From the NCBI GenBank assembly GCA_036925085.1, contig JAUPFP010000030.1:2141045-2205044 (forward strand): a stretch of 64,000 nt of DNA. The letters are read 5' to 3'. Origin of the DNA: Brachycybe producta (taxonomy: Eukaryota > Arthropoda > Diplopoda > Playtdesmida > Andrognathidae). Both the position numbers and the translations under genes were made by a program. Positions 28,344 through 33,420 of the stretch are shown piece after piece. The notes under the pieces are model-generated. The model ran no database searches. It saw nothing but the letters and a program-made list of their open reading frames with translations, and was not told the DNA's origin. Position 1 is the stretch's first letter, and every line of letters starts with the position of its first letter.

Positions 28344-33420
<5,077 letters not shown>

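Follow-up and report, generated by a model that had tools for sequence, protein, structure and literature searches.

Organization of the NMT locus

The minus strand of the window (the whole 64-kb stretch of DNA analysed here, with a G+C content of 32%) carries, between positions 33420 and 28344, 14 coding exons that assemble into a 507-codon N-myristoyltransferase (NMT) model with no internal stops (Table 1). GT/AG borders are present in all 13 introns. The start codon and exon 4 are the uncertain parts of the model, and neither affects its 3′ end. When the splice sites are scored by leave-one-out, the lowest donor and acceptor scores among the 13 introns fall at exon 4, the least certain exon of the gene.

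A Pfam match was obtained for four of the ten neighbouring frames that were scanned. All the neighbours described here lie on the minus strand: the frames at 19109–21008, two of which match the D-isomer specific 2-hydroxyacid dehydrogenase family (PF02826) and which probably belong to a phosphoglycerate dehydrogenase; Obg-type GTPase-like frames at 36276–36893, one of the two scanned hitting GTP1_OBG below the curated cut-off and the other giving no match; and a 370-residue frame with C2H2 zinc fingers at 38464–39573. Together with the G+C content and the richness in introns, these Pfam matches are compatible with an animal source, though they are no proof of one. Searches of the window for tRNAs and for Rfam families at the gathering score gave no match.

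Table 1. Coordinates of the NMT exons, intron 13 and its repeats, and alternative sequence elements at the 3′ end of the gene.
Feature	Positions	Strand	Basis or remark
NMT coding exon 1	33341..33420	-	in-frame model, donor GTAAGT; ATG start tentative
NMT coding exon 2, Lys-rich	32984..33089	-	gene model; inside the part aligned to human NMT1 44–128
NMT coding exon 3	32575..32719	-	gene model and phmmer alignment to human NMT
NMT coding exon 4, probable extra exon	32031..32092	-	preserves phase between exons 3 and 5
NMT coding exon 5	31807..31953	-	gene model and alignment
NMT coding exon 6	31564..31655	-	gene model and alignment
NMT coding exon 7	31365..31481	-	gene model and alignment
NMT coding exon 8 (VEINFL oxyanion-hole segment, YTAG)	31129..31299	-	gene model and alignment
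NMT coding exon 9	30950..31058	-	gene model and alignment
NMT coding exon 10	30793..30864	-	gene model and alignment
NMT coding exon 11	29975..30073	-	gene model and alignment
NMT coding exon 12	29724..29888	-	gene model and alignment
NMT coding exon 13, ending ...RCPAMSAER at donor GTACGT	29455..29592	-	read in sequence, model, alignment
Read-through stretch under retention of intron 13 (TAG after 34 residues unlike the family)	29350..29454	-	open frame, NMT_C match, G+C
Intron 13 (1,090 nt, GT...AG, phase 0)	28365..29454	-	sequence reading and model
Element with terminal inverted repeats (438 nt including flanking TA pair)	28849..29286		inside intron 13
Dispersed repeat copy	28560..28790		inside intron 13; BLAST
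NMT exon 14, coding part (VGLVLQ-stop)	28344..28364	-	sequence, alignment, shuffles, donor-acceptor scan
Acceptor-like CAG/TAG within exon 14 (exon start 28346)	28344..28349	-	matrix score
Dispersed repeat, example places	3761–4010, 19532–19754, 27155–27442, 28560–28790
Dispersed repeat, further example places	30363–30625, 34653–34907, 40392–40703, 61027–61214

Homology and domain structure

Judged by sequence similarity, the minus-strand gene is an NMT. The spliced protein aligns to human NMT1 by phmmer with E=4.3e-200 and 668.9 bits, and the alignment reaches the last residue, where the query end ...AMSAERVGLVLQ lies over ...SMGAEKVGLVLQ of the human enzyme. The protein thus finishes, as human NMT1 does in this alignment, in a hydrophobic GLVLQ-type C-terminus. 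Matches at E up to 0.001 comprised 44 distinct solved-structure sequences, which are NMTs by name, with human NMT1 the best. The N-terminal NMT domain (PF01233) scores 258.3 bits against a cut-off of 25 and covers profile positions 1–160 of 160. With the terminal exon included, the C-terminal domain (PF02799, NMT_C) scores 265.3 bits against a cut-off of 27.9 and covers positions 1–198 of 198. When exon 13 is instead read through on its own, it matches NMT_C positions 144–186; of its 80 residues the match goes no further than residue 44 and so does not reach the 34 added ones. Pattern searches for related loci gave 9 matches in viral contigs and 104 in prokaryote contigs, none of which was confirmed.

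We compared the active site by eye on the phmmer alignment, using a residue list from PMC7048800. The query has the same residue as human NMT1 at Tyr180, Val181, Tyr192, Glu244, Asn246, Phe247, Leu248, Thr282 and Gln496, and so retains the active-site set of the human enzyme (Tyr180, Tyr192, Asn246, Thr282 and the oxyanion residues Phe247/Leu248). The two proteins differ between aligned parts, where query residues 111–139 (29 residues after QPVPRL, partly encoded by exon 4) stand against one residue in human NMT1; exon 4 has no counterpart in that alignment.

A very probable 21-nt terminal exon

The last codons of exon 13 are GCC GAA AGA, and they are followed by GTACGT, whose first base is 29454. 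Further along the minus strand, a TTTTAG acceptor at 28370–28365 is followed directly by the 21 nt GTTGGATTGGTTTTGCAGTAG (28364–28344). The preliminary description had proposed that this donor joins in phase to an acceptor 1.1 kb downstream and that the short piece behind it supplies the catalytic C-terminus of the enzyme. Reading the sequence bears out the junction: a phase 0 join of exon 13 to the 21-nt piece gives ...SAER followed by VGLVLQ-stop, across an intron of 1,090 nt by our count. Left unspliced, the exon 13 frame stays open to a TAG at 29352–29350 and gains 34 residues, close to the roughly 35 family-unlike residues described earlier, and these fall outside the NMT_C match.

A chance origin of the VGLVLQ match is made very unlikely by two estimates. 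From base composition, the expected number of AG plus VGLVLQ-stop occurrences is 3e-7 per 2 kb. The 2,000 bases 3′ of the donor were also shuffled 2,000 times with a first-order Markov model: at least one AG followed by six codons and a stop matched three or more of the six residues in 64 shuffles and four or more in 4, and none matched five or six; the real 2,000 bases hold one match to all six. A relaxed tail motif, [GAS][LIVMF][VIL][LMIV][QKH]-stop, occurs at three places on the two strands of the 64 kb, and GLVLQ itself occurs only at 28361.

We also combined 17 GTs (exon ends 29591–29350) with 116 AGs (exon starts 29440–27401), which gave 1,936 donor-acceptor pairs with an intron of at least 50 nt. 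Sixteen of these end with at least three of the five letters of GLVLQ. The ending is exact in three pairs, every one of which uses acceptor 28364 (with donors 29581, 29455 and 29434), and only donor 29455 places family-like sequence before it; donor 29581 was discarded, as it would remove most of exon 13. The other 13 pairs end in GLVRV through AGs 27788, 27783 or 27778, an ending that we read as chance because the acceptor in phase with 29455 (27788) scores -3.9 and ranks 103rd of 116. Nor did a different terminal exon emerge: among the eight top-scoring of the 116 acceptors, 28364 is the only one that yields an NMT-like C-terminus when joined in phase 0 to donor 29455. The 21-nt piece is therefore very probably the coding part of the last NMT exon, and the earlier proposal that it supplies the catalytic C-terminus is very probably right, given the alignment to human NMT1 up to the last residue.

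Splice sites and repeats of intron 13

The sites of intron 13 were scored with a matrix built from the 12 other introns of the NMT model, which makes it small and crude. On this scale the donor GTACGT (29455) scores -0.17, ranking 52nd of 66 GTs in the stretch and second lowest of the 13 introns in leave-one-out scoring. Three other donors of the model score similarly low, those of intron 4 (-0.49), intron 7 (0.57) and intron 8 (0.39). Acceptor 28364 scores 6.63, eighth of the 116 AGs and fourth of 13 in leave-one-out scoring. An in-frame alternative donor at 29434, 21 nt after 29455, scores 1.71 against -0.17 for the latter. Its use is predicted to add seven residues (VREIENE) ahead of VGLVLQ and to keep the tail; the end of human NMT1 has no such insertion. 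Donor 29434 is conceivable as the source of a minor form.

Intron 13 is long for this gene, in which eight of the 12 other introns measure under 200 nt. It contains an element at 28849–29286 with 24-nt inverted arms that are 96% complementary and a TA on either side, the TA pair being weak evidence when taken alone. The element is probably a non-autonomous, MITE-like DNA transposon; no second full copy was found within the 64-kb window. The intron also holds one copy of a dispersed repeat that occupies 18 places in the window (the intron 13 copy counted, after merging 31 BLAST hits) and about 3.3 kb in total. The copies are ~73% or more alike over their matched pieces, and some places matched on both strands. 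Intron 10 (719 nt) contains the repeat as well, at 30363–30625. The inverted-repeat element and the dispersed repeat make up much of intron 13, and we infer that it owes its extra length at least in part, and probably mostly, to them.

Probable constitutive splicing and its alternatives

The preliminary description had raised retention of intron 13 as a possible switch. Under such a scheme, a retained-intron or intronically polyadenylated transcript would end its reading frame at 29350 and yield an NMT that binds substrate and is nearly dead. The low donor score at 29455 would suit intron retention, as would the frame that stays open for 34 more codons to give a 535-residue protein with a foreign tail, and two AATAAA sequences within the intron, at 28760 and 28733, would suit polyadenylation. 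The low activity of truncated human NMT1 (0.4% of kcat/Km without its three end residues, according to PMC7048800) indicates what such a protein might lose. The added residues nevertheless look like intron: they lie beyond the NMT_C match, and the read-through stretch has 28% G+C, near the 27% of intron 13 and unlike the 41% of the exons overall (37–50% each). The comparably low donors at introns 4, 7 and 8 also count against this reading. The switch proposed earlier is unsupported, and we regard an isoform that acts in this way as highly improbable. A gene that truly ends at 29350, with the VGLVLQ piece a chance match or a relic, is extremely improbable: the frame of exon 13 is indeed open that far, but the base-composition expectation and the shuffles make a chance VGLVLQ very unlikely, the in-phase join recreates the end of human NMT1, and acceptor 28364 scores well.

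A switch between tandem acceptors would leave the donor at 29455 in use and exchange 28364 for the acceptor-like site at 28346, 18 nt beyond it. This site has a score of 9.2, the highest of the 116 AGs and above that of 28364, and it is followed immediately by an in-frame TAG; the predicted splice removes exactly VGLVLQ, and the product would be a crippled protein, six residues shorter, that ends in AER-stop. The score comes from the crude 12-intron matrix, however, and the coding need can suffice to explain the site, because TTG CAG TAG spells Leu-Gln-stop. An upstream AG is normally met first in splicing, which here would favour the AG at 28366–28365. We consider the tandem-acceptor switch very unlikely, although, should some isoform exist, the 28346 acceptor is as good a candidate for it as intron retention. 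Taken together, the two routes would make VGLVLQ a splice-controlled cassette, left out either by use of the 28346 acceptor or by keeping intron 13, with a nearly inactive NMT as a possible decoy that tunes myristoylation; this broader idea is unlikely indeed.

The literature gave little that bears on such isoforms. Searches on the N-myristoyltransferase last exon and alternative splicing found no work, and none of the items on NMT1 intron retention was relevant as judged by title or the start of the abstract. Searches with microexon, exon 12 or terminal exon returned matches concerned with circular dichroism, CLN3 and peroxisomal signals. Passages of PMC5492501 yielded nothing on NMT end-exon splicing. 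For human NMT1, PMC6089459 reports three isoforms of different weight, two of which perhaps arise via splicing or internal starts.

The locus is almost certainly an ordinary NMT gene with a 21-nt last coding exon that is joined by splicing from 29455 to 28364. It appears to be an intact, ordinary animal NMT gene on the minus strand, encoding two GNAT domains. Its terminal exon would contribute six codons and a stop to the coding sequence, in phase 0 with exon 13, and the two exons would be joined by removal of the 1,090-nt intron, which an inverted-repeat element and a dispersed repeat have probably lengthened, at least partly. Most likely this splicing is constitutive, which would explain the observations without any switch.

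Probable catalytic role of the last six residues

The catalytic importance of the C-terminus is known from human NMT1, for which the following comes from PMC7048800. That source describes Gln496, through its C-terminal carboxylate, as the catalytic base, which acts on the substrate glycine via water. Removing the last two residues nearly preserves kcat (0.34 vs 0.41 per s) while Km rises from 18 to 629 uM, which leaves a relative kcat/Km of 2.3%; mainly peptide affinity is lost, and Glu244 serves as the new base. Removing the last three residues leaves a kcat/Km of 0.4%.

By homology with human NMT1, VGLVLQ would place the C-terminus of the millipede protein within the active site. There its carboxylate, together with the end segment, would position the substrate glycine and accept its proton. 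Because the human truncations reduce kcat/Km to 2.3% and 0.4%, exon 14 is expected to be necessary, and the 21-nt exon should supply the end segment that activity requires. Loss of VGLVLQ should leave the protein almost inactive; reasoning from the human enzyme, the main cause would be that it no longer holds the substrate. The earlier expectation of an inactive enzyme is accordingly fair for the loss of all six residues; it does not hold for the carboxylate alone, which is replaceable in the human enzyme, as the two-residue truncation described in that source keeps its kcat.

A gene model that runs exon 13 to its stop would give the predicted NMT a spurious tail of 34 residues in place of its catalytic end; expression or modelling of the enzyme should therefore include the 21-nt exon. 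The tiny last exon is ordinary gene anatomy and an easily missed exon, and it is biologically ordinary unless transcripts reveal it as optional.

Comparison with known enzymes and terminal exons

The closest known counterpart is human NMT1 (PDB 9i2d, 5o9s and others), the same enzyme, which shares the VGLVLQ end and aligns to its final residue. Human NMT2 (PDB 9ndp) is likewise aligned to its last residue, with E=1.9e-196 and a score slightly below that of NMT1 (656.9 vs 668.9 bits). In entry 1rxt the residues corresponding to the NMT1 end are VGIVLQ.

Short terminal coding exons are a known difficulty for gene prediction. NMT exon 14 resembles them generally in being a separate last exon with little coding sequence before the stop, and it differs from them in that its codons are, by homology, catalytically important.
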